The position numbers were made by a program, and so were the translations under genes. Source: a virus. Taken from it: 64,000 nt of DNA. Below are positions 8,390 through 62,011 of this stretch, one piece after another (the stretch's first letter is position 1; each line of letters starts with the position of its first letter). Location: IMG/VR virus record IMGVR_UViG_3300007609_000016, positions 1 to 64,000 of that record; one strand, 5' to 3'. A model generated the notes under the pieces. It saw only the letters and a program-made list of their open reading frames with translations. It was not told the DNA's origin and did no database searches.

Positions 8390-8395
8390 TAAATA
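8388..8395 (+). promoter_or_regulatory. Late element AATAAATA, 5 bases before ATG
   Basis: AATAAATA overlaps the TAA stop of gp20 (8387-8389). It is followed by CAACT and then the ATG at 8401. In T4 the late element spans about -13 to -6, so +1 falls on the A of the ATG. No Shine-Dalgarno sequence is present. Confidence 0.65.
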
Positions 8396-8400
8396 CAACT

Positions 8401-8643
8401 ATGCTTTTAAACGAATTTTTATATTTTAACAGTGACGTAAACGACTTTGCGGTCGATCGCAGATATGATAACAAGCGTGACAGCTCGGTTCTCAAGCGTT
8501 CTGACACAAGAAAAATTCGTCTAACCCTTAAACAAATCAATCAGATGCGTTTACAATCTGAAGCACACGAAGCAGAAAAAGAATCTGAGCTGGAGTTTAT
8601 TAAACAGATGTATGGTAACCCAGTTGAAGCACCACAAGAATAG
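8401..8643 (+). CDS. Small charged protein between gp20 and gp21 (gp67 position)
   Basis: The 80-aa protein has an aromatic N-terminus (MLLNEFLYFNSD), a basic middle (DTRKIRLTLKQ) and an acidic helical end. In T4 the portal gene is followed by small prohead core genes 67 and 68. Size and place fit gp67 (80 aa), but I see no sequence signature, so homology is not claimed. The start has no Shine-Dalgarno sequence and sits at the predicted transcription start. It overlaps the next gene by 32 bases in another frame. Confidence 0.6.
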   Translation: MLLNEFLYFNSDVNDFAVDRRYDNKRDSSVLKRSDTRKIRLTLKQINQMRLQSEAHEAEKESELEFIKQMYGNPVEAPQE

Positions 8644-25913: not shown

Positions 25914-25921
25914 AATAAATA
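25914..25921 (+). promoter_or_regulatory. Late promoter AATAAATA before the second giant fibre
   Basis: AATAAATA lies 18 bases before the ATG at 25940, and ACGGAGC sits between as a ribosome site. The second giant fibre can thus be transcribed separately from the first. Confidence 0.65.
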
Positions 25922-32996: not shown

Positions 32997-33004
32997 TATA
33001 AATA
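32997..33004 (+). promoter_or_regulatory. Perfect late promoter TATAAATA
   Basis: This is an exact T4 late consensus 19 bases before the ATG at 33024, with TTAGGAGAA between. It would drive the two small proteins and the cysteine-rich family downstream. Confidence 0.75.
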
Positions 33005-41273: not shown

Positions 41274-41281
41274 AATAAATA
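41274..41281 (+). promoter_or_regulatory. Late element AATAAATA, 4 bases before ATG
   Basis: AATAAATA is followed by CAGT and the ATG at 41286. No Shine-Dalgarno sequence precedes the ATG. Predicted transcription start is at, or within 1-2 bases of, the start codon. Confidence 0.65.
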
Positions 41282-44351: not shown

Positions 44352-45793
44352 GGATTCATATCAAGCCGCCAGTAACCTGGAGAATATTCACCTTCGAATG
44401 ATTTGAGCCATTGCTCTCCGTCCCACTTATATTGGATTCCGGTTCTTATGTTGGTAACATATGTAGTATCAGTTACAGAAGAAGATGCAAAAACAGTTTC
44501 CCACTGTGTTCCGTTCCACTCTACGATATCGTTTTGTCTGAGGATGTACGATGTTTGTGTGCTACCGTCGGTGCCTTTCCAACCTTCGGCACCGTCTGTG
44601 TTATCAGGATCGCCTATTGTTTCTAACAGTAGATACCTGGTACCTGTAGGTATATTTGCAACACCACTCCAACGTTCTACAGGATTGAAAGTTAACGGAT
44701 TAACAATAGCATCTATAGTGCCCTTGCCGCTAATCAATGTGTTTGTGGGAATTGTGTCCTGATCAAATGTAACCAATAACACTTCTGGATTTACAGGATT
44801 GACCGCAAATGTTCCTGACATTTCAAATCCGTTGGGCTGTAGGAAATAAATCCTGCTGTCGGCCCACGCACCGCCGTACACATTTAGCACAGCATTCCAG
44901 TCTACGTTCTTGTTGGCAAATTCTTTTTCATCCAGGCCTAGACTTTGCACCGCTTGATTTTTATCTACAACGGTGACTTCATAATCATAAGGCTCTCCGT
45001 TTTCTGCTTTAAACAGTAACACGTTATAAAGATAAGATGTAACTACTTGCGAGTTGCCAATTCTTTCACTGTAAACTAGGTTTTCTAAACTCTGTACTTC
45101 GCCTTCTTCTGTGAAAATATTTGTGATAATTTTCTGTATCACTCCTAGTTTTTTAACCTTTGCTGGCGGCGAAATATATATAGGCATTTCGAATTCTAAA
45201 CTACAAATATCAATATCTGAATCTGTACCTACCGGAATGGTTCTGCTACTAAAACTGGTACTGTTGAGATACATTGTGGATAGACTGGTCCAATCTATGT
45301 AGTTGTCCGTGCTTTGAATTTCCAAACTGGGACGGAATAAAACCAGTATCTGCTCTAGTAACTGAAGCTTTTGATCTGTGTTAGAACTCCAAATATCCGC
45401 CTTCATTGTTAGCTTATACGGTACAGGCATTAACCTCTCGACAGTATAGTTGGCACCCTGCTCTCCGGTATATACAGGCTCGTTACCTGCTCCTGAACTG
45501 TCGTATTCGTAACGTCTTTCACGAACATTTATTTTACTAACAAAGCTGGGATCTCCAAGTCTTGCCTGATCCATTTCTAAACCTGTGATATAACAGGCAA
45601 TCCTAGGCACAGTTGGCATTTTGTTTTCAGAATTTTCTTTGATAATGCTGGCAACCTGTCTGGTCATATCGCCGTACATAACCGGAACAGTCTTTTGTTC
45701 ACCGTCACCGGACTCGTATTTGAATCCAATAAATGCTCGCATAAACTGTGTAACGAAACGTCTTATCTGTCCGTCGTAAAAGAAGTCACTCAT
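44348..45793 (-). CDS. 15: Tail completion / sheath stabiliser gp15, extended
   Basis: The N-terminal 240 residues follow T4 gp15: FFYDGQIRRFVTQFMRAF, VPVMYGD, PRIACYITGLEMD, VPYKLTMKADIWSSNTDQKLQLLEQILVLFRPS. T4 gp15 (272 aa) caps the tail tube and sheath and joins the head. This copy is 481 aa. The extra C-terminal part is beta-rich and carries two fibre-type motifs, VEWNGTQWETV and YKWDGEQWLKSF. Its ATG overlaps the gp14 stop (TAATG). The extension suggests added surface modules at the neck. Confidence 0.8.
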   Translation of the reverse strand: MSDFFYDGQIRRFVTQFMRAFIGFKYESGDGEQKTVPVMYGDMTRQVASIIKENSENKMPTVPRIACYITGLEMDQARLGDPSFVSKINVRERRYEYDSSGAGNEPVYTGEQGANYTVERLMPVPYKLTMKADIWSSNTDQKLQLLEQILVLFRPSLEIQSTDNYIDWTSLSTMYLNSTSFSSRTIPVGTDSDIDICSLEFEMPIYISPPAKVKKLGVIQKIITNIFTEEGEVQSLENLVYSERIGNSQVVTSYLYNVLLFKAENGEPYDYEVTVVDKNQAVQSLGLDEKEFANKNVDWNAVLNVYGGAWADSRIYFLQPNGFEMSGTFAVNPVNPEVLLVTFDQDTIPTNTLISGKGTIDAIVNPLTFNPVERWSGVANIPTGTRYLLLETIGDPDNTDGAEGWKGTDGSTQTSYILRQNDIVEWNGTQWETVFASSSVTDTTYVTNIRTGIQYKWDGEQWLKSFEGEYSPGYWRLDMNP

Positions 45794-47169
45794 TATTCGT
45801 CTGCCTCTGGTCTAAGTGCCTTTGACAGACTTTGCTTTTCTTGTACAGTCTTGCCATCAACGGTTGTTTGATTGTCGTTGTTTACAAACCCACTTAGTTG
45901 TGTTTGTCTTTGATCTTTACCTTCAAACTCGGCACCTGTTTGTGTATCGCTGTTACCGAGATTGCTCATAGTCGTTCTCACATCGTCTTCGATTCGTTGC
46001 CATCTTACTCCGTTATATCGGAACAGTCGATTAGGCAGATAGTCAGTTCTGAGTGCATATTGTCCTTCGCCGGGATTAATAGGAAATGCTATGCCCTGTG
46101 TAAACGGAGCACCATTTTGGGGGACACCGTCGCCTGTAAGATACCCGGGATACTTGTTGTATTCAGAAGTCTGTAACACAGTATCAGCGGTAACAGCCAT
46201 ATATACCGGCTCGCCTGTCTCGTCATAGATGGTATTGCCGTCTTCGTCGGTGCTAGGAATTAACAGTTCGTCGCTGTCTGCTCTTACTAGTGATGCTTTT
46301 CCTTCGTCGTCTTTTTGGATATGGAAAAACTTGGTAACATCGTATCCACTCTGTGGAGCGTCCTCTTCGGCTTGATCAAGAACAGCCTGCGTAATCTGCA
46401 TTTCTTTTTCATATGTGCTCACTATATCTCTGAGAGTGTCTGCTACCTGATAGTATGTTAAATCCGGCGGAGCAATGCCTGAGACTTCTCTGACTACTTC
46501 GTATTTGACACCGTCTTCGCCCAGCACAATTTCACCAGGGAAGTATGTAATATCGGGATTGTATGTACCAGAATAAGCATCAGTATTTGCAATATCGTCT
46601 AAAATCTCTTTGAATTCTTGGCTGTCTACCATTGGTACACATTTAGCTCTGTATAGATGAGGATACCATAACGGCGAAAATCCTTCAGCCGCTCGATTAA
46701 CTTCTTCTACAACATAAAATCTTTTGAGTGCATATTGAAGATCGTTAAGGGCATACTCATCTTTTAGATGTGGTAGCTCGAGAACATCGCCCGCTATGAT
46801 TTTTCTGCCTAATTTTTCAACAGTGTCGTTGATGTGAAATGTCATAAACAGTGTGTCGTTCTGTAAGAACAACCCAAACTGGCTTAGATTAAAATCTATA
46901 TCAGTTATGCTGTAATGGCATCTAAGTTGATAGATATCAGGATCATATTTTCTGTCTCTGTTTTCTAAAAACAGCAAATCTTGAATGTTGTTTACGCTGT
47001 CTCCTTCGTATGTAGGAGTCGACGCAGTTTCTTCCCCAGAGCTACCTGGTCCTAGATATCTATGAACCAGCACATCGGTACCACCTATTTGGAATTGTTC
47101 CCAAATAGTTTTGTCAAAAAATTTGTAATCATTGCCTTTTTCGGGGCGATATAAACTGAGTCTTGGCAT
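45793..47169 (-). CDS. 14: Neck protein gp14, extended
   Basis: The 458-aa protein has a gp14-like first half (PRLSLYRPEKGNDYKFFDKT, IQDLLFLENRDRKYD, FNLSQFGLFLQNDTLFMTFH, GDVLELPHLKDEYAL, KRFYVVEEVNRAAEG). T4 gp14 is 256 aa. It forms the neck with gp13 and joins head and tail. The C-terminal half has an acidic linker and the fibre-type motif LPNRLFRYNGVRWQRI. It is transcribed away from gp13 from a shared palindromic promoter. No Shine-Dalgarno sequence is seen. Confidence 0.78.
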   Translation of the reverse strand: MPRLSLYRPEKGNDYKFFDKTIWEQFQIGGTDVLVHRYLGPGSSGEETASTPTYEGDSVNNIQDLLFLENRDRKYDPDIYQLRCHYSITDIDFNLSQFGLFLQNDTLFMTFHINDTVEKLGRKIIAGDVLELPHLKDEYALNDLQYALKRFYVVEEVNRAAEGFSPLWYPHLYRAKCVPMVDSQEFKEILDDIANTDAYSGTYNPDITYFPGEIVLGEDGVKYEVVREVSGIAPPDLTYYQVADTLRDIVSTYEKEMQITQAVLDQAEEDAPQSGYDVTKFFHIQKDDEGKASLVRADSDELLIPSTDEDGNTIYDETGEPVYMAVTADTVLQTSEYNKYPGYLTGDGVPQNGAPFTQGIAFPINPGEGQYALRTDYLPNRLFRYNGVRWQRIEDDVRTTMSNLGNSDTQTGAEFEGKDQRQTQLSGFVNNDNQTTVDGKTVQEKQSLSKALRPEADE

Positions 47170-47177
47170 AGTACTAG

Positions 47178-47192
47178 TATTTATGATAAATA
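47178..47192. promoter_or_regulatory. Palindromic two-way late promoter between gp14 and gp13
   Basis: TATTTATGATAAATA is a perfect 7-bp inverted repeat around a central G. On the plus strand it gives GATAAATA (47185-47192), 5 bases before the gp13 ATG. On the minus strand it gives CATAAATA (47185-47178), 8 bases before the gp14 ATG. Two late -10 elements thus share one central base pair. Confidence 0.75.
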
Positions 47193-47197
47193 TAACT

Positions 47198-47956
47198 ATG
47201 AGTCAGATTGAAGAACAAAAACAAGAAGTATTCGAATACTGTCGCACAATGCTTGGCGACGGAATGATAGACGTTGAACTTGATCCTATTCATTACGAAA
47301 CAGCATTGAAAAAATCACTGTCAGTGTTTAGACAGAGATCAGACAATGCTGTCGAAGAAAGCTACTGTTCTTTGAATCTACTCGAAGATCAAAACGAATA
47401 TATTCTTCCGCAAGAAATCCAACAGGTTAGACAGATATTCCGTCGCAGTGTTGGATCACGCACCGGCGGCGGTGGCGGAGGAACAGTGTTTGAGCCTTTT
47501 AATTTGGCTTACACAAATACGTATCTATTAAGCTCAACTAATATGGGCGGACTAGCCACTTACGAACTATTTGCACAGTATCAAGAGCTGGTCGGCAAGA
47601 TGTTTGGATCTTTTATCAACTTTACCTGGCATCCACAGAGCCGTAAACTAATTATACAACAAAGACCAAGAGGTGACGAGCAGGTTCTTCTTTGGGTTTA
47701 TAACACCAAGCCAGACAGTGTGATAATCAGCGACACATATGCAGGACAGTGGATTAAAGATTACACGCTTGCTAACTGTAAGTATATGCTAGGCCAAGCC
47801 AGAGAAAAGTTTGCTACTATTGCTGGCCCTGCAGGCGGAACAGCATTAAACGGTGCGGCAATGAAAGCAGAAGCACAGTCGGATCTAGACAGACTCACTG
47901 TTGAACTGGTTACATTAGTACCGGGTGGACAAGGCTACAGTTGGATTATAGGATGA
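47198..47956 (+). CDS. 13: Neck protein gp13
   Basis: This 252-aa T4-type neck subunit contains FEYCRTMLGDGMIDVELDP, ALKKSLSVFRQRSDNAV, FGSFINFTWHPQSRKLII, VLLWVYNTKPD, WIKDYTLANCKYMLGQAREK and the helical end SDLDRLTVELV. The ring of gp13/gp14 closes the portal after packaging and receives the tail. The start at 47198 (MSQIEEQK) is chosen because it sits 5 bases after the late element. A longer in-frame start at 47132 would run through the promoter and adds an unrelated hydrophobic extension. A glycine run (GGGGGG, about residue 92) marks a loop. Confidence 0.85.
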   Translation: MSQIEEQKQEVFEYCRTMLGDGMIDVELDPIHYETALKKSLSVFRQRSDNAVEESYCSLNLLEDQNEYILPQEIQQVRQIFRRSVGSRTGGGGGGTVFEPFNLAYTNTYLLSSTNMGGLATYELFAQYQELVGKMFGSFINFTWHPQSRKLIIQQRPRGDEQVLLWVYNTKPDSVIISDTYAGQWIKDYTLANCKYMLGQAREKFATIAGPAGGTALNGAAMKAEAQSDLDRLTVELVTLVPGGQGYSWIIG

Positions 47957-48305: not shown

Positions 48306-48929
48306 ATGATTATTGGCGTTTGCGGTTTCATTGGCAGCGGTAAAGACACCGTGGCAGATTATCTTGTAAATCAACACCAGTTTCGCAGAGAAAGTTTTGC
48401 TGGCACACTTAAAGATGCTGTGTCGGCTGTGTTTGGCTGGGACAGAGAACAGCTTGAAGGTAAATCTGCAGAAGCTAGAGAATGGCGAGAAGAAGTTGAT
48501 GAATGGTGGGCACAACGTCTTAATATGCCCACATTAACTCCTAGATGGGTATTACAGTATTGGGGTACTGAAGTAGGAAGAAAAAGTTTTCACGGCGATA
48601 TTTGGATCGCCAGTTTAGAAAACAAACTTCGACAGAGTCGAGACAGTGTGGTAATATCAGACTGTCGCTTTCCCAATGAAGTCGAATCGATCAAAGCCGC
48701 AGGCGGCAAAATAGTCTGGGTAGTTCGAGGCGAGCTTCCGAGCTGGTACGAAACAGCCAAACTGGCAAACCACGGTGATATGAACGCAATTAACGCTATG
48801 ACTGAACTGAACATTCACAGTTCAGAATGGGCTTGGTTGAATACTGATTTTGATCTAGAAATATATAACAATGGCAGTATTGACGAATTGTACAACCGCG
48901 TAGAGCAGATTCTAGAAGTCGGCGATTAA
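48306..48929 (+). CDS. 1: Deoxynucleoside monophosphate kinase gp1
   Basis: The 207-aa protein has a P-loop GFIGSGKDT at residues 7-15, then DYLVNQHQFRRESFAGTLKDAV, the T4 gp1-type block TPRWVLQYWGTEVGR and SVVISDCRFPNEVESIKAAGG, and a late HSSEW. T4 gp1 phosphorylates dTMP, dGMP and hydroxymethyl-dCMP to feed phage DNA synthesis in the cytoplasm. The consensus early promoter fits. It overlaps the convergent HNH-like gene by 18 bases. Confidence 0.88.
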   Translation: MIIGVCGFIGSGKDTVADYLVNQHQFRRESFAGTLKDAVSAVFGWDREQLEGKSAEAREWREEVDEWWAQRLNMPTLTPRWVLQYWGTEVGRKSFHGDIWIASLENKLRQSRDSVVISDCRFPNEVESIKAAGGKIVWVVRGELPSWYETAKLANHGDMNAINAMTELNIHSSEWAWLNTDFDLEIYNNGSIDELYNRVEQILEVGD

Positions 48930-49247
48930 ATCTCCTTGCTTCCAGGCAGTTCCTTCTTTGGCAAGCACAATTCTGCAATTTGCACACACAGTTTTGAGAT
49001 TACTGCGACGACAGTTATCAAGATTCCCGTCAACGTGATACACCCTATATACATCTTTGTACTGTGATTTATATCCGCACTTGTCACAGTGATCTTTGAT
49101 TCGATAACCTGCTCTATACCACCTAGGCACACCGTGATAAACACCATTGTTCATACACACCTCACAGAGACTTCTGTAGTAGGTCTTTCCGTTCTTTTTG
49201 TAATTTACGGCTTTAGGGCGTATACCGCACTTGCATAATGGTCTCAT
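48912..49247 (-). CDS. HNH-like zinc-binding protein
   Basis: The 111-aa protein has two Cys clusters. The first is CKCG..LCEVC at residues 5-31. The second is CDKCG..YHVDGNLDNCRRSNLKTVCANC, an HNH-like arrangement with the first His in YHVDGN and the Asn in SNL. The last His normally following the final CxxC is Arg here (CANCRIV), so nuclease activity is uncertain. It could be a free-standing HNH endonuclease or a zinc DNA-binding protein. It is alone on the minus strand with its own late element. Confidence 0.65.
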   Translation of the reverse strand: MRPLCKCGIRPKAVNYKKNGKTYYRSLCEVCMNNGVYHGVPRWYRAGYRIKDHCDKCGYKSQYKDVYRVYHVDGNLDNCRRSNLKTVCANCRIVLAKEGTAWKQGDLIADF

Positions 49248-49252
49248 AGCAA

Positions 49253-49260
49253 TATTTACA
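49253..49260 (-). promoter_or_regulatory. Late element TGTAAATA, minus strand, 5 bases before ATG
   Basis: Read on the minus strand, TGTAAATA is followed by TTGCT and the ATG of the HNH-like gene (49247). It has the same N5 spacing as the plus-strand modules. GGAAGGAAAGG lies upstream of the element, not between element and ATG. Confidence 0.55.
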
Positions 49261-49320: not shown

Positions 49321-49354
49321 CTACTACAAATTACTATTACCAGGAGATATGGGA

Positions 49355-52809: not shown

Positions 52810-53442
52810 ATGCCAATTACTTCACTTAACAACTTTGGAGTACCAACAGACGGTGGCAACCAAGTACTATTAATGCCTAAGTTAAAGTATCGTTTCCGAG
52901 TAACACTACTCGGTTTTGGTGCTGAGGCAGCAACTGAGCTAACCAAGCAGGTAATTGATGTTGCTCGTCCGAGTGTGACTTTTGAAGAAATGACACTCGA
53001 CGTGTATAACTCAAAAGTATACCTAGCTGGTAAGCACAGCTTTGAAGCCATTACACTTAATTTACGTGATGATGCAAGTGGATTTGTACAGCGTCTAGTA
53101 GGACAGCAGGTTCAGAAGCAATACGACTTTGTTGAACAAGCTGGTGCTAGAAGTGGTATTGATTACAAGTTTACCACTAGGATTGAAGTTTTAGACGGTG
53201 GTAATGGTGCCCAAGAAGTTGGAGTTTTAGAAACTACTAACCTATGGGGTTGCTTCTTGCAGAACGTTAACTACAACGATTTAAACTACGGCACAAACGA
53301 AGCGGCAACTGTTGCGTTATCGATTAGATTTGATAATATGACACAGCTCAAAGCAGGTAGTGATACAGTTATTGAAGGTATTGGTCAGAATATCGGCGCA
53401 GCCTTTAACTCAACTCTAGGTAACTTAACCACAGGCGGTTAA
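52810..53442 (+). CDS. 19: Tail tube protein gp19
   Basis: The 210-aa protein has the gp19 tube pattern: FRVTLLGFGAEAATELTKQVIDVARPSVTFEEMTLDVYNS near the start, ITLNLRDDASGFVQRLVGQQ, then IEVLDGGNGAQEVGVLETTNLWGCFLQNVNY. T4 gp19 (163 aa) stacks in hexameric rings inside the sheath to form the DNA channel. It lies 2 bases after gp18 and ends at a strong terminator. Confidence 0.9.
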   Translation: MPITSLNNFGVPTDGGNQVLLMPKLKYRFRVTLLGFGAEAATELTKQVIDVARPSVTFEEMTLDVYNSKVYLAGKHSFEAITLNLRDDASGFVQRLVGQQVQKQYDFVEQAGARSGIDYKFTTRIEVLDGGNGAQEVGVLETTNLWGCFLQNVNYNDLNYGTNEAATVALSIRFDNMTQLKAGSDTVIEGIGQNIGAAFNSTLGNLTTGG

Positions 53443-53456
53443 TAACTACCTTACTC

Positions 53457-53488
53457 AAAAAGCTCAGTATAAAAACTGGGCTTTTTTT
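53457..53488 (+). terminator. Intrinsic terminator after gp19
   Basis: AAAAAGCTCAGT (53457-53468) pairs with ACTGGGCTTTTTTT (53475-53488) with one G-U pair. It is followed directly by a late element for the next gene. Confidence 0.85.
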
Positions 53489-53491
53489 ACG

Positions 53492-53499
53492 GCTAAATA
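53492..53499 (+). promoter_or_regulatory. Late element GCTAAATA, 5 bases before ATG
   Basis: GCTAAATA is followed by ATAGT and the ATG at 53505. No Shine-Dalgarno sequence fits in the gap, and the preceding terminator separates this gene from gp19. The unit therefore depends on this element. Confidence 0.65.
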
Positions 53500-53504
53500 A
53501 TAGT

Positions 53505-54608
53505 ATGGCAAATAAATTCACAAGATTCCTTACAGGATTTACATCGGGTTTAACAAATCCTAAAGGCATTTCGTCTGACTATAGACACGCTTCGAGACTG
53601 TTTATCGATGACACTTTTAGACTGGCTCCGAGAACCAAGTTTAATTATTTTGTTAGATTCGAAATTGACAGAACAGCATTTAAAGCACCTAAATTTGGAA
53701 ACAAAGAAATCGAAGAGTTCGGTATGTTGGTTAAACGTACAGATTTACCTAGCTTTAAATTCGACACAGAAACCAAGAATCAGTATAATCGTAAACGAAT
53801 AATATATAAAATGATCAACTATGATCCTATATCGTTTAGTTTTCACGACGACAGTGCCGGAGTTGTGAATGCATTGTGGGCTATATATTATGGTTATTAC
53901 ATAGCAGACAGAAACACAGCAAGTGTACGAGATATCGGATCTAGTATCATTTCCGCTTACGGAGACACAAAGTATCGTCAAGCAGGTACAAAATATGATG
54001 ATTTTAGGTATGGGCTAGACAACGACAAATCCGTTGACTTATTTAAAAGTATTACTATCTACACGATGAGTAGACAACGATTTTTAAGTTATACACTAGT
54101 AAATCCTAAAATTACCACTTGGAAACACAGCGAAATGGATTATTCACAAAGTGCCGATCCAGCTGAAAATTCTATGGACGTAGAATACGAAGCGGTAATT
54201 TATGGCGGCGGAAGAGTAAGCGAAGGTATTAAAGGCTTTGCAGACCTACACTACGATGTTACTCCTAGTCCTTTAACTGTTGCCGGCGGAGGAGTCGGAT
54301 CGATTGTAGGAGAAGGCGGATTACTAGATGGCCTAGAATCAATATTCGGAGCAGTCGGTAGCGGCCAGGCATTTGATTCTCCGCAGAATTTTTTAGGCAC
54401 AGCAATTCGAGCCGCAAACACATATAAGAATTTTAAGGATCTTTCTGTCGATGACATTAAACAAGAAGCAGTAAATATTATATCAAGTCCAGCAGGAGTA
54501 TCAACAATTGCGGGGATTGCTGGAGCTGTATTTCCTAAAAATGATAATTCAGATCAAGCAACAATAGCTACGCAGAAAAATCTAACTAGTACAGAAGGAT
54601 CTTCATAA
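53505..54608 (+). CDS. Tail-tube-related baseplate protein (gp54/gp48-like, tentative)
   Basis: The first 260 residues of this 367-aa protein carry a tube-like layout related to gp19: FNYFVRFEIDRTAFKAP, EFGMLVKRTDLPSFKFDTETKNQYNRKRIIYK, YDPISFSFHDDSAGVVNALW, and VEYEAVIYGGGRV. The C-terminus is Gly/Ser-rich (GGGVGSIVGEGGLLDGLES) and then helical. T4 uses two such gp19-related proteins, gp48 and gp54, at the tube-baseplate junction. Which one this corresponds to cannot be told here. It is coupled by TAATG to the next gene. Confidence 0.6.
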   Translation: MANKFTRFLTGFTSGLTNPKGISSDYRHASRLFIDDTFRLAPRTKFNYFVRFEIDRTAFKAPKFGNKEIEEFGMLVKRTDLPSFKFDTETKNQYNRKRIIYKMINYDPISFSFHDDSAGVVNALWAIYYGYYIADRNTASVRDIGSSIISAYGDTKYRQAGTKYDDFRYGLDNDKSVDLFKSITIYTMSRQRFLSYTLVNPKITTWKHSEMDYSQSADPAENSMDVEYEAVIYGGGRVSEGIKGFADLHYDVTPSPLTVAGGGVGSIVGEGGLLDGLESIFGAVGSGQAFDSPQNFLGTAIRAANTYKNFKDLSVDDIKQEAVNIISSPAGVSTIAGIAGAVFPKNDNSDQATIATQKNLTSTEGSS

Positions 54609-54973
54609 TGTCAACAAATTTACCACCCAAACAACTAGATGACAGCGCCGCCGGAACAAAATTATTTTTCGACAGCTACGGAAAAGAACCTTTACAGTTT
54701 CCAGCTGCAGATGTAAATGCTGCTGTAAACTTTTTCAAAAAAGCAGGGTTTGACGAAGACGCAAGTCAAGTGACCGCCATAACTCTTCTAAAGCAAGCCA
54801 AATTAGAAGGAATTTCTATTTTTGAAGTTCTCGACGGCTTAAAAAATCTACAAACATTACAGATTAGTACACTAGTCGGTGAAATTTTAAATAATAACAG
54901 AGTGCCTACATCGACATTAGGATTTAAAGTAGATGTCCCTCAAACTTCTAAGTTAAGGAATATTTTAGCCTAA
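54608..54973 (+). CDS. Small helical structural protein
   Basis: The 121-aa protein contains ADVNAAVNFFKKAGFDEDAS and ITLLKQAKLEGISIFEVLDGLKNLQ, an all-helical pattern, then a short C-terminal extension. It is coupled at both ends (TAATG) between the tube-like protein and gp4. It is probably a baseplate or neck assembly protein; no named family is recognised. Confidence 0.55.
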   Translation: MSTNLPPKQLDDSAAGTKLFFDSYGKEPLQFPAADVNAAVNFFKKAGFDEDASQVTAITLLKQAKLEGISIFEVLDGLKNLQTLQISTLVGEILNNNRVPTSTLGFKVDVPQTSKLRNILA

Positions 54974-55413
54974 TGCCAAGATTTGCCCAAGGAAGATTTG
55001 AACCAAAAAACCCCAGTAAATACGTGGGTAAAAAATCTCCACACGCTAGAAGCAGTTGGGAGTTTGTGTTTATGAAAATGCTAGACGAGCATCCCGGTGT
55101 GGAATCTTGGGCCAGTGAAAGTATACAGATACCATATAGAGATCCGTTAACAGGTAAATCCACGATATATGTACCAGATTTTTTTATCGTATATCAAGAC
55201 AAAAACGGAAAGAAAAACGCAGAACTGATAGAAGTAAAGCCTACCAATCACACGTTGAGAGAGCGTGTTGGCAAAAGCGGATATAATCAAGAACAGTATG
55301 TGAAAAATCTTGCGAAATGGGAGGCAGCAACTGCCTGGTGTAAACAAAAACGAATTAAATTTAGAGTTGTAACCGAAGAAGATATTTTCCATAACGGTAA
55401 AAAACGTAGATAA
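54973..55413 (+). CDS. 4: Head completion protein gp4 (nuclease fold)
   Basis: The 146-aa protein matches T4 gp4 (150 aa): FAQGRFEPKNPSKYVG, RSSWEFVFMKMLDEHPGVESWASE, IYVPDFFIVYQDKNGK and AELIEVKP. The residues E30, D69 and E87-x-K89 match the PD-(D/E)xK nuclease core. T4 gp4 completes heads before tail joining. The start uses TAATG coupling, and the TAA stop lies inside the late element for the next gene. Confidence 0.88.
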   Translation: MPRFAQGRFEPKNPSKYVGKKSPHARSSWEFVFMKMLDEHPGVESWASESIQIPYRDPLTGKSTIYVPDFFIVYQDKNGKKNAELIEVKPTNHTLRERVGKSGYNQEQYVKNLAKWEAATAWCKQKRIKFRVVTEEDIFHNGKKRR

Positions 55414-55416
55414 GTA
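55409..55416 (+). promoter_or_regulatory. Late element variant GATAAGTA, 5 bases before ATG, holding the gp4 stop
   Basis: GATAAGTA contains the TAA stop of gp4 (55411-55413) and is followed by ATAGT and the gp16 ATG at 55422. The same GATAAGTA variant with 5-base spacing precedes gp17, so the two terminase genes share one promoter form. Confidence 0.55.
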
Positions 55417-55421
55417 ATAGT

Positions 55422-55904
55422 ATGACCAAAAAACTAGAAGAACTGTTTAATTTAGAAGAACAAAACAAGGTTGAGCCCGAAGTGGTTGAACCTGAAGTTC
55501 CCGCACACGAACAGGTTAAAAGTCTTGATGACAGCTTCGAAGCGGTTAAAGATATCACAAAATCTCTTCCAGAAATCCCCGAACTAGACGATGCATCTGA
55601 CAATGAACTAGACTCGCTAGCATCAAAAGCAGAACAAGCCTACGACGATTTGATGGATCTCGGAATGAATGTAGAAGTAAGATACAGCGGCAGAATTTTT
55701 GAAGTTGCTAGCTCTATGATGAAAAATGCCATAGATGCTAAAACAGCAAAAATTGATAAAAAGCTAAAGGCCGTAGATTTACAAATGAAAAAATATAAAA
55801 TTGACAAGGATATGCCCGAAGCAGAAGGCGAAGTTGTAAACGGTTCAGGATATATTATTTCTGACCGCAACGAGTTATTGAAGAAATTGGGCAAAAAGGA
55901 ATAA
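55422..55904 (+). CDS. 16: Terminase small subunit gp16
   Basis: The 160-aa protein fits T4 gp16 (164 aa) in plan. It has an acidic disordered N-terminus (LEELFNLEEQNKVEPEV) and a central helical oligomerisation pair (LDSLASKAEQAYDDLMDLG, FEVASSMMKNAIDAKTAKIDK). The C-terminal segment ends GYIISDRNELLKKLGKK. gp16 binds DNA and regulates the gp17 motor. Weak primary similarity is usual for this family. Gene order gp4-gp16-x-gp17 supports the call. Confidence 0.75.
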   Translation: MTKKLEELFNLEEQNKVEPEVVEPEVPAHEQVKSLDDSFEAVKDITKSLPEIPELDDASDNELDSLASKAEQAYDDLMDLGMNVEVRYSGRIFEVASSMMKNAIDAKTAKIDKKLKAVDLQMKKYKIDKDMPEAEGEVVNGSGYIISDRNELLKKLGKKE

Positions 55905-55907
55905 ATA
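55900..55907 (+). promoter_or_regulatory. Late element AATAAATA, 5 bases before ATG, holding the gp16 stop
   Basis: AATAAATA contains the gp16 TAA (55902-55904), then CACAT and the ATG at 55913. No Shine-Dalgarno sequence lies between element and ATG. It is one of the clearest stop-promoter-start modules. Confidence 0.65.
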
Positions 55908-55912
55908 CACAT

Positions 55913-56485
55913 ATGAAAACCTTTAAAGAATACTTAACAGAAAGCACAAAAGTTTATGGTTTCAAGATCAAAGTTGCTGGCGAAGTCCCAGAAAACTTTC
56001 AAGAAGATCTAAAAACTCGCGTTGATCGTTGTGGAATTGTAACGTTTGATAAAATCAAAACAACTCCTATTCAAGAAGCTCCTTTAGATTTTCCAGAAGC
56101 CAGAAACGCTGAAGTAACAGTGTTTGATTTAGTGTGTGAATATCCTATTACTAGCCCTGAAATTCATCAAGAAATTCTAGAAATGGGTGTTGCACCTTCT
56201 AAATTCAAAGTCAGAGGCAGCTTAGAGCCTAGCGAAATCGATCAAGAACTTATGGACGATCAGCGTGAAGGTTCATTGTTAACAGACGAAACTTATGCAG
56301 AGTCGCCGGATGTAGAACACAAAGATTATTTTGGTGACGAATTTAACAAAGGATTTTTAGCAGACCTAGCAAAGGCAGCACAAGAACGTAAAAAAGAACT
56401 AGGCCAGGACAACACTGACTTAGATGTTTTAGAAACAACAGCAAAAGAAGGAAAGACAGGGAAAGACAGCCCTGTCGGGAGTTAA
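55913..56485 (+). CDS. Putative internal head protein with capsid-targeting-like leader
   Basis: The 190-aa protein begins MKTFKEYLTES. This resembles the T4 capsid-targeting leader MKTYQEFIAEA of internal proteins, and L8-T9-E10 before S11 fits gp21 cleavage. The body has a compact alpha/beta part (YGFKIKVAGEVPENFQEDLKT, NAEVTVFDLVCEYPIT) and an acidic helical tail (DLAKAAQERKKELG). It lies between the terminase genes, among head genes. I infer a protein packaged in the prohead. Confidence 0.6.
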   Translation: MKTFKEYLTESTKVYGFKIKVAGEVPENFQEDLKTRVDRCGIVTFDKIKTTPIQEAPLDFPEARNAEVTVFDLVCEYPITSPEIHQEILEMGVAPSKFKVRGSLEPSEIDQELMDDQREGSLLTDETYAESPDVEHKDYFGDEFNKGFLADLAKAAQERKKELGQDNTDLDVLETTAKEGKTGKDSPVGS

Positions 56486-56487
56486 CA

Positions 56488-57318
56488 ATGCACGGTTTAC
56501 AAGATTTAATTAACAAGTTAGAGGCTATTAACAATCAGCCTGTAGAAGAAGGTTTTGGTGATATGCCTCCGGCACCGCCTGCTCCGCAACCTGAAGATAA
56601 AGCGAGAATGAGTGTTAACATTAGTGCCGAAGGTGATGCTATTGAAGATGTATTAAAATTAATGACCAAGGTCAACCCTGATATGATCAATCAGAAAGAC
56701 ACTGTGCCTATGTCTTTAAAGCCTGAAATGGACGGCCCAATGGATAAGCCAATGATTGCTCCTTTAAAAATGCTTCCCGATCTAGGTGATGACGATGGCG
56801 ATGATCTTCCTCCAAAACACGATAAAGATCACATGATTGTTAAGACTCTAGACAAAGACGGTGATCTAGATCACGATATGGACGATCATAAAAAAGAAAA
56901 TGCATCACTGCAAGGCAAGCAAGACGAGGCTGACATCGATCTCAGCAAGTTTAGCAAAGAAATGTTAGATCAAATCAAAAATGCCAGTGATGCAGAATTG
57001 AATAAGATGGCAGTTGATTTTGGCGGAAGCAGTATGGAAATAGGTCGAGAAGAAGAAATGTTCCGTAAGATTCGTGCTCAGTTAAACAAGCAAGACGAAG
57101 CATACGAAAACGAACCAAACGAAGAATATGATGATGTAGATTATATTCTTAACACACTAGCAGGTGGTATGAACCGTCCTAAAGGAACACATTCAAATGT
57201 TTCTAAAGGTGACAATCCTATGCAAAAGGTAGCACATCACGAGAGCGAAGAAAAGGATCTCCGCTCACAAATTAAAGAAGAGCTAGCACAGAGACTAGCA
57301 CAGTACAAAGGGGAATAA
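56488..57318 (+). CDS. Acidic structural protein, unknown
   Basis: The 276-aa acidic protein has a Pro-rich N-terminal linker (DMPPAPPAPQPED), an Asp/His-rich stretch (DDDGDDLPPKHDKDHM, DKDGDLDHDMDDHKKE) and helical repeats. A conserved-looking block, YDDVDYILNTLAGGMNRPKG, occurs near residue 215. The Asp/His segment could bind divalent metal. It starts 2 bases after the preceding gene with GGGAG. Likely a virion or prohead protein. Confidence 0.55.
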   Translation: MHGLQDLINKLEAINNQPVEEGFGDMPPAPPAPQPEDKARMSVNISAEGDAIEDVLKLMTKVNPDMINQKDTVPMSLKPEMDGPMDKPMIAPLKMLPDLGDDDGDDLPPKHDKDHMIVKTLDKDGDLDHDMDDHKKENASLQGKQDEADIDLSKFSKEMLDQIKNASDAELNKMAVDFGGSSMEIGREEEMFRKIRAQLNKQDEAYENEPNEEYDDVDYILNTLAGGMNRPKGTHSNVSKGDNPMQKVAHHESEEKDLRSQIKEELAQRLAQYKGE

Positions 57319-57320
57319 GA

Positions 57321-57779
57321 ATGGCAGATTTAACAACTGCAACAATTGGCGGTGGTAGCTCAGAACTAGTAAAAAGAAATCCACAATACCACGTTGGCGG
57401 AACAGGTCCTGCATCTTTGGATTTAGAAATACCTCTTTACAACGGTAATAAGCCATTGGTCTTCTTTGAATTAGATTTTGGTACGGATGTTAGTGCCCAG
57501 TTAAATCCAGAAGAAGCAATTAATGTTTGTATCGAAAAAGTACAGGAATATGCCACAATCGTTATTCGCGGCGATTTGCATAGCACGAGCCAGGTAATGA
57601 CCTTTGCTGTTGAAACAACCAACCAGAGTCTCGATTGGGATGGTAACGGTGCAGAAACTCTAGTAGAACAAATCGAAGATGAAATTATTGCACTAGGCGA
57701 TCAGAGCGGCGGCACGCCGAATCAAATTGACTATACAGGTGTAACTTGTACAGTAAAGACTAGTTTAAATCTAGCATAA
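57321..57779 (+). CDS. Small structural protein, unknown
   Basis: The 152-aa protein (ADLTTATIGGGSSELVKRNP) mixes beta strands (KPLVFFELDFGTDV, YATIVIRGDLHS, TCTVKTSLNLA) with a helix (NPEEAINVCIEKVQ). It ends at a strong terminator just ahead of gp17. No family is recognised. The abundance implied by its own terminator suggests a structural rather than catalytic role. Confidence 0.55.
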   Translation: MADLTTATIGGGSSELVKRNPQYHVGGTGPASLDLEIPLYNGNKPLVFFELDFGTDVSAQLNPEEAINVCIEKVQEYATIVIRGDLHSTSQVMTFAVETTNQSLDWDGNGAETLVEQIEDEIIALGDQSGGTPNQIDYTGVTCTVKTSLNLA

Positions 57780-57793
57780 ATTTTAATAAAATC

Positions 57794-57820
57794 AATAGGG
57801 CCTTTTGGCCCTATTTTTTT
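57794..57820 (+). terminator. Intrinsic terminator before gp17
   Basis: AATAGGGCC (57794-57802), loop TTTT, GGCCCTATT (57807-57815), then a T run to 57820. The gp17 late element follows within 2 bases. Confidence 0.9.
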
Positions 57821-57821
57821 G

Positions 57822-57829
57822 GATAAGTA
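57822..57829 (+). promoter_or_regulatory. Late element variant GATAAGTA, 5 bases before the gp17 ATG
   Basis: GATAAGTA, then AAAGT, then ATG at 57835. It follows directly after a terminator, so gp17 transcription depends on this element or on read-through. Confidence 0.6.
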
Positions 57830-57834
57830 AAAGT

Positions 57835-59421
57835 ATGAGTAAATCACTTGACGGCGTTCAGATTAAAAAGGCTCATACGCCACAAAAATACACACTAGAA
57901 GAAGTTGAACATTTAGAAAAATGTATGGATCCCGTCGACGGTCCTTTATATTTTTGTAAAACATTTCTTCAAATTCAGCACCCCACTAAAGGTAGTATGC
58001 CATTTGTTCCTTACGAATATCAGGAAGAAATGTTAAAAGCATATCATGATTATCGTTATACTGTAGCAATGTTACCTCGCCAGATGGGTAAGACTACGTG
58101 TGCCGCAGGTTATTTGCTTTGGTATTCGATGTTTACACCCGAAGCACAGATTTTAATTGCCGCACACAAATACACAGGTGCCCAGGATATTATGAATCGT
58201 TTCAGATACGGTTACGAGTCGTTGCCTGATTTTATTAGAGCAGGTGTATATTCGTATAACAGGAATACAATTGAATTCGACAACGGTAGTCGTGTACAAG
58301 CAACTACAACAACAGAAGATACTGGACGTGGTAAATCTCTATCATTGATTTATTGTGATGAGTTTGCATTTGTGCAACCTCCTGAAAAAGCCAAAGAATT
58401 CTGGACAGCACTTTCACCTACGCTGTCAACAGGTGGTAAGTGTATTGTAACTTCAACACCTAACTCGGATGAAGATCAGTTTGCTATGATTTGGACTGAA
58501 GCTAATAAAAAGTTTGACGAGTTTGGTAATGATCAAGAAGTAGGCACTAATGGGTTTTATCCGTTTTTTGCACATTGGGACAGACATCCAGATCGTAATG
58601 AATCCTGGGCCGCAACAGAAAAAGCAAAAATTGGTGAAGAACGATTCCGTCGAGAATTTGACTGTGAGTTTTTGATCTTTGACGAAACACTCATCAATGC
58701 TGTTAAGTTAGCTGAACTAGAGGGTAAAGATCCTATCTTATCAATGGGACAGACTCGCTGGTACAAAGATATTAATCCCAAAGCAACATACATGGTGGCA
58801 CTAGATCCTAGTCTAGGTACCGGCGGCGACTACGGAGCTATTCAGGTATTCGAAATGCCTAGTATGGAACAAGTCGGCGAGTGGAGATCGAACACTACTC
58901 CTGTTCAGCAACAGGTAAAAACAATGCGAGAAATCCTTAAATTTATTCACGAACAAGGTGAAGAAAAAGGCAGTCCCCCACAGATCTATTACTCAGTAGA
59001 AAACAATACACTAGGTGAAGCGGCATTGGTAGTTATTGCAGACATCGGTGAAGAAAACTTTCACGGACTGTTTATTAGCGAACCGATTCGCAGAGGTCAC
59101 GTTAGACGTTACCGCAAAGGATTTAATACCACACACAAGGCAAAAATCACAGCCTGTTCAAAACTTAAGAATCTATTAGAAACTCGCAAAATGATCGTGC
59201 ATTCAAAGCCTTTGATATCAGAGTTTAAAACGTTTGTTGCCCAAGGCACTGGCTTCGGTGCCAAGAGTGGAGAACACGACGACTTGGTTGCATCTCTGTT
59301 AATTGTGATCAGAATGGCAGATGTGTTAGCGGACTGGGATCCCAAGATTTACGAAAAGATGACAGAAAAAGTATCAGAAGAAGAGATGCCAATGCCTATC
59401 TTTGTAAGCGGCATACTCTGA
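57835..59421 (+). CDS. 17: Terminase large subunit gp17
   Basis: This 528-aa packaging motor ATPase and nuclease has a Walker A-like P81-RQMGKTT, Walker B LSLIYCDEFAF (about 172), coupling motif CIVTSTPNSDED, and an RNase-H-type nuclease. The nuclease Asp lies in VALDPSLGTGGDYGA (about 322), with ENNTLGEA and a late HDDLVASL (about 482). It pumps DNA through gp20 and cuts headful ends. The start at 57835 is chosen because an in-frame TTG at 57805 lies inside the terminator hairpin. The TGA stop overlaps the next late element. Confidence 0.95.
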   Translation: MSKSLDGVQIKKAHTPQKYTLEEVEHLEKCMDPVDGPLYFCKTFLQIQHPTKGSMPFVPYEYQEEMLKAYHDYRYTVAMLPRQMGKTTCAAGYLLWYSMFTPEAQILIAAHKYTGAQDIMNRFRYGYESLPDFIRAGVYSYNRNTIEFDNGSRVQATTTTEDTGRGKSLSLIYCDEFAFVQPPEKAKEFWTALSPTLSTGGKCIVTSTPNSDEDQFAMIWTEANKKFDEFGNDQEVGTNGFYPFFAHWDRHPDRNESWAATEKAKIGEERFRREFDCEFLIFDETLINAVKLAELEGKDPILSMGQTRWYKDINPKATYMVALDPSLGTGGDYGAIQVFEMPSMEQVGEWRSNTTPVQQQVKTMREILKFIHEQGEEKGSPPQIYYSVENNTLGEAALVVIADIGEENFHGLFISEPIRRGHVRRYRKGFNTTHKAKITACSKLKNLLETRKMIVHSKPLISEFKTFVAQGTGFGAKSGEHDDLVASLLIVIRMADVLADWDPKIYEKMTEKVSEEEMPMPIFVSGIL

Positions 59422-59427
59422 TAAATA
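59420..59427 (+). promoter_or_regulatory. Late element GATAAATA overlapping the gp17 stop
   Basis: GATAAATA begins within the gp17 TGA stop (59419-59421) and is followed by CAATACT and the ATG at 59435. The spacing is 7 bases, slightly longer than the other modules. No Shine-Dalgarno sequence is seen. Confidence 0.6.
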
Positions 59428-59434
59428 CAATACT

Positions 59435-62011
59435 ATGGATGCAACCAATAATATAGCAACAGATTTATTTTACAAGATCAGAAGTAGATTTTCTGGTCTT
59501 AAACTTGGCGACGAAACCAGCCAGATTACCATTAATCCAGAAGATGCAAGATTCTTTGATTTTAACTATACCGAAGGAGAAAATCCCATCGGACATATCA
59601 CAGTAAGTCTTGCAGAACCTAATTCGATGAAGGTTTATTTTTCTACTGGCATTACCGAAGGTATGGATGATGGTCAAAAAAACAATTGGTATAAGTTTTT
59701 AAAAGAGTTGCGTCAATTTGCCAAACGTAGACTGTTAGCATTTGATACTAGAGACATCGCAAAAGATAATTTGGATAGAAGAGATTATGCATTTTTAAGT
59801 CAGTATGCAACTCCTAAACCAACCACACCAGATTCAGTTACAACACCCGTCGGAGAAGGAATAATGAATGAAAGTAACATGTACGGAACTAGAACACAGA
59901 GTTTCCAAAAGCTAGAAGATACCAGGCTAATCATTAAGCACAGCAAGACTGTTATGGATGATGCCACACCAGGAGCAAGAACCAGAAATATTTCTGCACT
60001 GTTCGTTGAAAACTGTGAAGGTGAAAGATTCAAATATCCGTTTATTCATCTAGCAGGTGCTAGAGCAATGCAAAGACACGTTGCCAACGGTGGTGTTCCT
60101 TACGATGATATCGGTTCTAGTATTATCAAAATGAGTGAAGAAATTGCTCAGTTAAAAAGTTTTAAAAACTATGTGGTACGCAACGACCTAATGAACTCCG
60201 ACAACAACACTGTGGTCGAACGTAGTACCGCTCAATTAGAACAGTTAAAATCTCAAGTAGCAAGATTAGGCAAGCAAAAGCACTACGAGGCGTTTGTTGA
60301 AAACTTCCAGGCAATCGAACAACCAGAAGTTCCAGAAGAAATGATGGAACAACTAAAAGACCAGTTTACTGTAAAAAGTTTCAAGGAAGATATTACTTCA
60401 GTGTTCCCAGTATTATACAGATTAATGCAAGAGAAGAATGAAGTAGGCTACGACGACATAGTCGCAATGACAACAGAAGCAAAAGAAGAAGACGAACCAC
60501 CATTTGAACCAGATGAAGAAACGACACCAGACACCGACGAGTTTGGTAATCCTATTAAAAAGAAAAATGTACCCAAGAAACTTGCTAAAAAAGGTATGAA
60601 ACAGGCAATGGGCGAAAGCGATCCTTTTGCTAAATTTGAAGATTGGGCAATGACACTTGGCGAGCAATCTGCAATACAGTCGTCGGATGATGAAGAAAAA
60701 CAGAATGCCATCGCAGAACTACAAGAACTAGTAGGCCAAGAATTTCCAGCAGGTGTAGACGGTACTAATGCTATACAGAGTCTAGAAGGCATCATTGACG
60801 ATCCAAGACTAGAACAAGAAATTAAAACGATGGCAAAAGAAGATTCAAGTCAAGATGTACGCAGTTTGGTCAAAGATTGGCTAGAAGAAAATGCCAGCGA
60901 AGTTGTTGAAGAACTTGACTTTGGCGACTACGAAGAAACACAACCCAAAGTTGGTGCTGACGAAGTCGAGCCGCAAGAAGAAGATTTGGATGTAGATCTC
61001 GACGAAGCAACAAGACGCGAGTTCTTAGATATGTTAGCCAAGGCTGGCATAGGTGCGGCTGCCGCAGGAATAGGAACAGGCATCGGAGCAATGAAAGCAG
61101 GTACTCTTGCTCAGAGAATGGGAGCCGATGATGATGAGTCCGATATTGAGATAAAACCAAGACCATATCCTGATCCAGAGTTTGTTGAAGTTTTAGTTAA
61201 AGCCGTTAACGAGAAAGGATACGATGAAACTCTTAAAATAATAAAAACGACAGATATGTTTAAAAACGATCCTAGAAAATTCCAAGATTACAAAGATGCA
61301 CTGGACAAGGAATTAGGTATGAGTGAAGAATTAGATAGCATTCTAAACCTAGCTGGAGTAGAAGAACCTGTTGCAGAAGGAATGGATCCGGAAGAGTTCA
61401 AACAAAAAGTTGCTGATAGTGGCGATGACGGCTACGATATGATAAAAGACGCAATGGCGGGCAAATATGGTCCTAAAGTGCAAAAAGAACTAGAAGATAT
61501 GTATAATGATGTAGCTGTAGACAACGGGTTGCATCCAGACGACGATTATGAAGATATTTTTGATCGAATGATGAATAATATTGCAGATGATTACGGCGAT
61601 GATTACACAGCTGACCAAGATGATAATGATGACTTTGATTTTAGACAAGAATATGACGACGATCCAATGGATGATATGATGGACGATGTTGAAATTGAAG
61701 GCAATGAGTTTGCTAAGAAAGTTCAAGATCTTAAATCACAGGGCAAGCCAAAAGGCACCAAATTTAAAACTTCGGATGGTGAAGAGCATACTCTAGAAAG
61801 TATTGCTGAATTCATAATGAGTTGCTATGATAGAGATTCGGGTACCTTCCCTAAAGGCCCACAAGGAGTCGCTCTTATGGTAGGCAAGAAGTTTGGCGAA
61901 GATGCAGAACTAGTTGCTCGCAAAATGGTTGAGCGTATGGCACCGGCACAAGAACAAGGTGCAGAAGAACTAGAAGAACTGGCAAGAATACAAAAACTGT
62001 CAGGATTATAA
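59435..62011 (+). CDS. Large acidic virion-like protein (858 aa) with Tat-like internal motif
   Basis: I recognise no named family. Residues 1-340 are a mixed alpha/beta domain (GHITVSLAEPNSMKVYFSTG, EGERFKYPFIHLAGARAM). Residues 340-525 are acidic and helical. L522-D523-E524 before A525 fits a gp21 cut, directly followed by TRREFLDMLAKAGIGAAAA (526-544), which looks like a twin-arginine signal core. An acidic region with many DD pairs follows, then a small C-terminal helical domain ending IQKLSGL, similar to the gp22 end. Sitting after gp17 with its own late element and terminator, it is probably an internal head or ejected protein. Confidence 0.55.
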   Translation: MDATNNIATDLFYKIRSRFSGLKLGDETSQITINPEDARFFDFNYTEGENPIGHITVSLAEPNSMKVYFSTGITEGMDDGQKNNWYKFLKELRQFAKRRLLAFDTRDIAKDNLDRRDYAFLSQYATPKPTTPDSVTTPVGEGIMNESNMYGTRTQSFQKLEDTRLIIKHSKTVMDDATPGARTRNISALFVENCEGERFKYPFIHLAGARAMQRHVANGGVPYDDIGSSIIKMSEEIAQLKSFKNYVVRNDLMNSDNNTVVERSTAQLEQLKSQVARLGKQKHYEAFVENFQAIEQPEVPEEMMEQLKDQFTVKSFKEDITSVFPVLYRLMQEKNEVGYDDIVAMTTEAKEEDEPPFEPDEETTPDTDEFGNPIKKKNVPKKLAKKGMKQAMGESDPFAKFEDWAMTLGEQSAIQSSDDEEKQNAIAELQELVGQEFPAGVDGTNAIQSLEGIIDDPRLEQEIKTMAKEDSSQDVRSLVKDWLEENASEVVEELDFGDYEETQPKVGADEVEPQEEDLDVDLDEATRREFLDMLAKAGIGAAAAGIGTGIGAMKAGTLAQRMGADDDESDIEIKPRPYPDPEFVEVLVKAVNEKGYDETLKIIKTTDMFKNDPRKFQDYKDALDKELGMSEELDSILNLAGVEEPVAEGMDPEEFKQKVADSGDDGYDMIKDAMAGKYGPKVQKELEDMYNDVAVDNGLHPDDDYEDIFDRMMNNIADDYGDDYTADQDDNDDFDFRQEYDDDPMDDMMDDVEIEGNEFAKKVQDLKSQGKPKGTKFKTSDGEEHTLESIAEFIMSCYDRDSGTFPKGPQGVALMVGKKFGEDAELVARKMVERMAPAQEQGAEELEELARIQKLSGL

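Follow-up and report, generated by a model that had tools for sequence, protein, structure and literature searches.

A clade of uncultured T4-like phages very probably makes common use of leaderless or near-leaderless mRNA in its gp55-type late regulon, judging from where the late promoter elements stand in the genomes. The element, (N)TAA(A/G)TA, is similar to TATAAATA of phage T4 and stands before virion genes in this clade. It was studied in a 64,000-base window of a 67,230-base IMG/VR virus record (IMGVR_UViG_3300007609_000016, positions 1 to 64,000) and in relatives of that phage. Spacings are given as Nx, where x is the number of bases between the late element and the start codon. The window belongs to a T4-type contractile-tailed phage, in which a portal, sheath, tail tubes, head closure protein, gp13-type adaptor, large terminase, and SSB were recognized. 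According to two virion proteins, with identities of about 24–32%, its nearest cultured phages are Phosso, PA5oct and its kin, Atu_ph07, and the RaK2/121Q/CBB groups; a megablast of window positions 53000–60000 against the phage collection gave no match. A 152-kb record with a large terminase (gp17) identical to that of the window is apparently a longer record of the same phage.

Late elements in the window

The late elements, spacings, and overlapping stop codons listed in an earlier sequence-only reading of the window are all present in the sequence. Six plus-strand elements have N5 spacing (8388, 47185, 53492, 55409, 55900, and 57822), the elements at 41274 and 59420 have N4 and N7, respectively, and the minus-strand element at 49253 has N5. 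The stop codons of the upstream open reading frames ending at 8389, 55413, 55904, and 59421 overlap the elements at 8388, 55409, 55900, and 59420. The same reading assigned gp13, gp16, and gp17 to this group of genes; the gene at 47198 matches head-tail adaptor Ad2 and that at 57835 the large terminase, while the small-terminase match of the gene at 55422 is weak (E value 4e-6). Late elements with leaders and Shine-Dalgarno sequences occur in the same genome, as had been noted, for example 25914 before the ATG at 25940 and 32997 before that at 33024. Terminators directly before the elements at 53492 and 57822, as well as divergent promoter pairs, go beyond what that reading had described. The features are as follows:

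8388-8395, plus strand: late element AATAAATA, N5 before ATG 8401; the portal gene (6668-8389) has its stop codon overlapping this element
8401-8643, plus strand: predicted leaderless gene, 80 residues, function not known (phrog_13986)
25914-25921, plus strand: leadered late element, for contrast, followed by a GGAG ribosome site and, after 18 bases, by ATG 25940
32997-33004, plus strand: leadered late element TATAAATA, for contrast, 19 bases before ATG 33024, with AGGAG
41274-41281, plus strand: late element AATAAATA, N4 before ATG 41286
41286-42824, plus strand: predicted leaderless gene, partial matches to baseplate wedge and tail fibre families
47178-47185, minus strand: late element CATAAATA, N8 before ATG 47169 of a virion structural gene (45793-47169)
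47185-47192, plus strand: late element GATAAATA, N5 before ATG 47198; divergent partner of the element at 47178-47185
47198-47956, plus strand: predicted leaderless gene, head-tail adaptor Ad2 (gp13 type)
48912-49247, minus strand: predicted leaderless gene, 111 residues, weak HNH endonuclease matches
49253-49260, minus strand: late element TGTAAATA, N5 before ATG 49247; reads GTGTAAATA-N5-ATG
53459-53491, plus strand: intrinsic terminator, hairpin of −12.0 kcal/mol (z −5.8) followed by a T-run; abuts the element at 53492
53492-53499, plus strand: late element GCTAAATA, a CTAAATA variant, N5 before ATG 53505
53505-54608, plus strand: predicted leaderless gene, tail tube
55409-55416, plus strand: late element GATAAGTA, N5 before ATG 55422; the head-closure gene (54973-55413) has its stop codon inside this element
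55422-55904, plus strand: predicted leaderless gene, small-terminase-like (weak match)
55900-55907, plus strand: late element AATAAATA, N5 before ATG 55913; holds the stop codon of the gene at 55422-55904
55913-56485, plus strand: predicted leaderless gene, virion structural
57790-57821, plus strand: intrinsic terminator, hairpin of −15.3 kcal/mol (z −4.1) followed by a T-run; abuts the element at 57822
57822-57829, plus strand: late element GATAAGTA, N5 before ATG 57835
57835-59421, plus strand: predicted leaderless gene, large terminase (gp17)
59420-59427, plus strand: late element GATAAATA, N7 before ATG 59435 (near-leaderless); overlaps the gp17 stop codon
59435-62011, plus strand: virion structural gene downstream of the N7 element

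Spacing excess over chance

A large terminase query matched 471 IMG/VR stretches, the best 80 of which were fetched and dereplicated to 43 loci (662 kb) by removing 36 near-duplicates as well as L009, which apparently represents the phage of the window itself. Among the TAAATA sites of these 43 relatives, 190 of 575 are followed by an ATG at N5, compared with a mean of 17.9 and a maximum of 25 in 20 dinucleotide shuffles; the other short spacings account for 14 (N4), 6 (N6), and 25 (N7) sites. The hexamer itself is depleted, with 575 sites versus 855 in the shuffles. Because the 43 loci repeat the same orthologous starts, a 353-kb record was tested singly, and 38 of its 229 TAAATA sites lie at N4 (18) or N5 (20), against a background of 3.97 per spacing (Poisson P 1e-14). 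In the 152-kb record, 13 of 132 sites lie at N4 or N5 (background 2.81 per spacing, P 0.005). Seven clade records have N4–5/N9–10 counts of 38/5, 13/4, 16/3, 13/2, 11/4, 13/1, and 15/2. Both strands of the window together hold 7 copies of TAARTA-N5-ATG, whereas 200 dinucleotide shuffles contain 2.2 on average; the strict pattern ATAARTA-N5-ATG occurs 7 times in the 67,230-base record, with 5 copies falling within the window, and the reversed pattern does not occur in the record. An excess of N5 over chance, whose absence had been set beforehand as a result that would refute the sequence-only reading, is thus clear in the relatives and modest in the window alone. That reading's insistence on a spacing of exactly 5 was too strict: N4 is about as frequent as N5 in the 353-kb relative, and N7 recurs in the relatives. 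Longer sequences were read in 20-kb stretches, and sites across their joins escape the counts for single genomes (the 353-kb and 152-kb records, T4, and HTVC008M), terminators, gene families, divergent pairs, gp17 upstream regions, the second Shine-Dalgarno count, and the wide sample of viral contigs described below.

Start codons, Shine-Dalgarno sequences, and base −1

Leaderless mRNAs characteristically start with AUG rather than GUG or UUG. The N5 peak in the 43 relatives exists for ATG only (190 ATG, 7 GTG, 4 TTG, and 1 CTG). Shine-Dalgarno sequences, scored as a tetramer match 4–18 bases upstream with no energy model, precede 25 of 199 N5 genes in the relatives and the window, versus 44 of 54 genes with an element and a long leader and 276 of 510 genes without an element, where genes lacking an N5 element and starting less than 60 bases from the end of a locus were left out. 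The background among 14,511 ATGs of any kind in the same sequences is 8.6%. A second count, which takes the first ATG that opens 60 codons after the element, compared spacings N4–7 with N14–45: Shine-Dalgarno sequences were present in 0/39 versus 30/53 cases in the 353-kb record, 27/210 versus 38/81 in the 43 relatives, 1/7 versus 5/6 in the window, and 2/14 versus 11/20 in the cultured Pelagibacter phage HTVC008M. All 199 N5 starts have T or C at position −1, and A is the commonest base there in the other two classes of starts. The pyrimidine at −1 fits the pyrimidine/purine step (−1/+1) that is usual at transcription starts.

Terminators and divergent genes

A hairpin with a T-run, identified by a simple search for this combination, closely precedes the element at 66 of 184 N5 starts in the relatives and at 5 of 18 in the 353-kb record, compared with 10 of 390 other starts; sites less than 70 bases from an end and open reading frames shorter than 60 codons were left out. 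A transcript arriving from upstream should stop at a terminator placed directly before the element, and therefore the mRNA of the downstream gene should start within the 13 bases preceding its ATG. The region upstream of gp17 contains an element at N5 in 74 of the 80 fetched loci, at N4 in 4, and at neither spacing in 2. Among the 78 N4/N5 loci, 72 also have a run of at least four T no more than about 10 bases upstream of the element; the fetched loci were not dereplicated and include L009. On inspection by eye, the T-run in most cases forms the tail of a hairpin. The hairpin sequence varies between phages, while the element and its spacing are kept.

Two opposed elements between divergent start codons 24–56 bases apart were found in 12 rows representing 9 distinct sequences. 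The divergent start codons 47169 and 47198 in the window are 28 bases apart, and the 67,230-base record has a second pair at 66139/66179. No such pairs occur in T4. The sequence-only reading had proposed a distinct expression class, and this is supported by Shine-Dalgarno frequencies near background, ATG-only starts, the pyrimidine at −1, upstream terminators, and divergent genes that have no room for a leader.

Gene families in the class

Taken together, the relatives (43 loci), the window, and the 353-kb record have 275 N4/N5 starts, which belong to 39 protein families; 12 of these families have at least two members. The largest by number of loci are gp17 (43), the small-terminase-like protein (38), and the virion protein encoded by the gene at 55913 of the window (37), followed by the tail tube (36), the gene after gp17 (34), the HNH-like protein (28), and the gp13 type (10). 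A nucleotidyltransferase-like family with 14 loci was recognized by eye only. Metabolic genes with N5 late elements are present in the 353-kb relative, namely a DAHP synthase gene (L357:18364-19197) and a fatty acid desaturase gene (L357:553-1365). The same relative has a gene with CHASE2 and adenylate/guanylate cyclase catalytic domains and an N4 late element (L355:5803-7845), which matches phrog_35576 (function not known). The leaderless class may therefore not be confined to virion genes; however, the single metabolic and cyclase cases could be due to chance.

Two neighbouring genes of the window were recorded in addition. A Nol-like carbamoyltransferase gene (39440-41224, E value 1e-165) lies directly upstream of the fibre-like gene. 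The tail sheath open reading frame has in-frame ATGs at 49349 and 49355, with AGGAG 2 bases before the first and 8 bases before the second; because of the spacing of 8 bases, 49355, the start chosen in the sequence-only reading, is likelier than 49349.

Late-transcription machinery

A gene for a gp55-type late sigma factor is present in 7 of the 16 records searched, and these are 7 of the 8 records longer than 100 kb. The matches have E values of 4e-77 to 4e-86 to phrog_12791 and 6e-24 to 4e-26 to phrog_234, and the 152-kb record is one of the carriers. The Pfam model of sigma-70 region 2 had no match in 11 records, and the gp55 PHROGs were used instead.

A gene for ribosomal protein bS21 is encoded by the 353-kb relative (L392, G010:33352-33510; E value 1.5e-19), and bS21 is also present in HTVC008M, PA5oct, and Atu_ph07, which gives 4 of 16 records; a search of the 11 remaining clade records, all shorter and possibly incomplete, gave no bS21 match. 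As the cause of the leaderless class bS21 was rejected, with two of its four carriers, PA5oct and Atu_ph07, lacking the class. A candidate host was likewise set aside: the only GTDB match, a 7.6-kb contig (L410) in a Betaproteobacteria metagenome-assembled genome with a gp17 relative of 66% identity, is too weak for an assignment.

Proposed mechanism and alternative explanations

The T4 late element spans about positions −13 to −6, the figure also used in the sequence-only reading. Excerpts of a review of T4 late transcription place the TATA box upstream of the start by about one helical turn and name position −13 as part of the element (PMC2988020). By analogy, the sites in the clade would be T4-type late promoters, presumably read in vivo by the host RNA polymerase with the phage gp55-type sigma factor. 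Transcription would start about 5–6 bases after (N)TAA(A/G)TA, which puts it at the A of the start codon or no more than about 3 bases away. The resulting late mRNAs would have no or almost no leader and no Shine-Dalgarno sequence; their translation would follow the leaderless route, with the 5′ AUG itself as the signal. A second set of late promoters would produce mRNAs with leaders and ribosome sites, so that each phage would have two kinds of late mRNA. The arrangement might allow compact packing of genes or an escape from control that acts via leaders.

The fixed distance to the ATG and the missing Shine-Dalgarno sequences would also fit an A/U-rich ribosome-binding motif on longer transcripts, that is, a translation signal rather than a promoter. 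This is improbable, since the same element stands farther upstream of other genes, most of which have a Shine-Dalgarno sequence (the 44 of 54 and 30 of 53 given above), terminators at many starts should end the upstream transcripts directly before the element, and the element matches the T4 late promoter in phages whose relatives carry gp55. The leadered copies, terminators, and divergent pairs favour a promoter role. If the elements are T4-type late promoters, most of the mRNA could still come from upstream promoters by read-through of the terminators, with translation coupled to the upstream gene. The four window cases in which the upstream stop codon lies 8–13 bases before the ATG are plausible for coupling; however, coupling is not readily possible at 53492 and 57822, which follow terminators, or at divergent starts, where the geometry is the same, and this explanation is judged slightly less probable still. 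The least credible alternative, with hardly any probability left to it, is that chance and AT-rich composition produce the pattern, as TAA stop codons followed by A or T give TAAATA near starts. The small excess in the window alone and the stop codons that supply the TAA in several cases agree with it, but it is refuted for the clade by the comparison of the relatives with their shuffles and by the single-genome test of the 353-kb record. Moreover, AT-rich T4, PA5oct, and RaK2 have no N4–5 excess over N9–10, and six other 6–7-mers gave no standout peak at N5. A different possibility is a regulon-wide translational switch, whereby the phage would alter the host ribosome or initiation late in infection, for example through a phage bS21, in favour of leaderless over leadered mRNAs. 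It is unlikely, if somewhat less so than the three preceding alternatives, and the bS21 link is only a lead, because of the carriers without the class and the clade records in which bS21 was not found.

Several observations weigh against leaderless late expression as the explanation. The N5 excess in the window alone is modest, the highest of its 200 shuffles also containing 7 sites. The 190 N5 sites in the relatives, together with the terminator and −1 counts, derive mostly from about 8 recurrent orthologous starts near gp17 and are not independent. Chance sites may be among the 27 families with a single member. N4 starts match the start-site signature less well than N5 starts: in the 353-kb record 5 of 12 have G at −1, and 0 of 12 have a terminator. 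The long-leader class has a weaker start-site signature at the same offset (N4 T 55%, N6 A 57%, n = 47). The T4 late machinery is only partly recognized; the gp45 sliding clamp match is weak (E value 0.003–0.006, in 2 of 8 records), and the gp33 co-activator was found in 0 of 8 records in a search without a responding positive control. In the wide sample of viral contigs, among the matches listed, at least 60 codons are opened by 96 of 120 N5 ATGs and by 70 of 121 N6 ATGs, compared with 23% for any TATG (first 80 loci of each set). Viral contigs outside this clade therefore use N6 ATGs as well, and N5 does not stand out everywhere.

If the proposal is true, a branch of the T4 superfamily drops the leader for its large-terminase, tail-tube, and head genes, which is a different way of late expression. 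Gene calling and promoter searches in these genomes would be affected, and the question would arise of how leaderless mRNA can yield large amounts of virion protein.

Comparison with known systems

T4-type late promoters, leaderless phage mRNA, and the prediction of leaderless genes from −10 boxes in bacteria are known already. The common placement of T4-type late promoters in a presumed leaderless position across a phage clade is apparently new; no description of leaderless late mRNAs in T4-like phages was found in the titles and abstract openings searched, a coverage outside which most subscription journals lie.

The late promoters of T4, which depend on gp55, gp33, and gp45, have the same kind of element, and relatives in the clade have a gp55-type sigma. 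However, T4 places the element with leaders, whereas the clade phages place many at N4–N7, and in the clade gp33 was not found in the records searched and gp45 is doubtful. In T4, 2 of 65 ATAAATA sites are at N5, and the commonest spacings to ATG are around N21–29. The short-spacing class is absent in T4 and in most of the 17 cultured relatives tested. Their N4–5/N9–10 counts on both strands are 10/10 for T4, 20/23 for PA5oct, 4/3 for Phosso, 17/13 for Atu_ph07, 7/9 for CBB, 3/7 for Syn9, 5/7 for RaK2, 3/3 for KVP40, 6/8 for S-PM2, 6/14 for P-SSM2, 16/7 for HTVC008M, 0/1 for Cr30, 1/4 for Aeh1, 5/1 for RB49, 0/1 for phiM12, 6/6 for 2.275.O, and 6/7 for S-TIM5; N4–5 counts alone are 5 for Melnitz, 2 for AG-345-F15, and 5 for Sf-CH5. 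A clear N4–5 surplus occurs only in HTVC008M and RB49, and the numbers for RB49 (NC_005066), an easily grown phage, are too few to judge.

For the jumbo phages CBB and GAP32, excerpts of the published analysis describe ATAAATA as a predicted late promoter before structural genes, with a gp55-like sigma in CBB and neither gp33 nor gp45 detected (PMC5259590). The excerpts contain no claim of leaderless mRNA, and CBB is without an N4–5 excess. Leaderless genes of bacteria have been predicted from a −10 box located some 12 bp upstream of the start, according to parts of a 2011 study in BMC Genomics (PMC3160421). The line of argument is the same, with the promoter position replacing the Shine-Dalgarno sequence, and the promoter element of the clade likewise lies about 10–12 bases upstream of the start codon. 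However, the bacterial case concerns a TANNNT box that resembles the sigma70 −10 element in cellular genomes, whereas in the clade the element is that of phage late genes and would serve a late virion regulon.

Leaderless phage mRNAs of single genes, such as lambda cI, are known, whereas the clade would have a conserved late class. A lambda mRNA starting at AUG is mentioned in the same excerpts of the bacterial study (PMC3160421), and excerpts of a study of phage AR9 state that phage transcripts are often leaderless (PMC5312081).

HTVC008M, whose host Pelagibacter is an ocean bacterium and which is listed under Kyanoviridae, probably also has leaderless late genes, as suggested by the arrangement of its elements. 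ATG is located at N5 after 9 of its 45 ATAAATA sites (background 1.0 per spacing, P 1e-6). Reading frames of at least 85 codons begin at 13 of its 16 N4/N5 sites, and frames of at most 12 codons at the other 3; in the annotated stretch, 3 of 4 N4/N5 sites are gene starts in GenBank (75559, 75830, and 85575). In a study of pelagimyophages, excerpts report that the prediction of middle and late promoters was unsuccessful in those genomes (PMC7029224). HTVC008M shares with the clade the N5 peak, upstream terminators (hairpins seen by eye before the elements at 6280 and 75559), and a divergent pair (18916/18943), but its pyrimidine at −1 is not universal (12 of 14 N5 sites). It makes leaderless late expression testable in culture.

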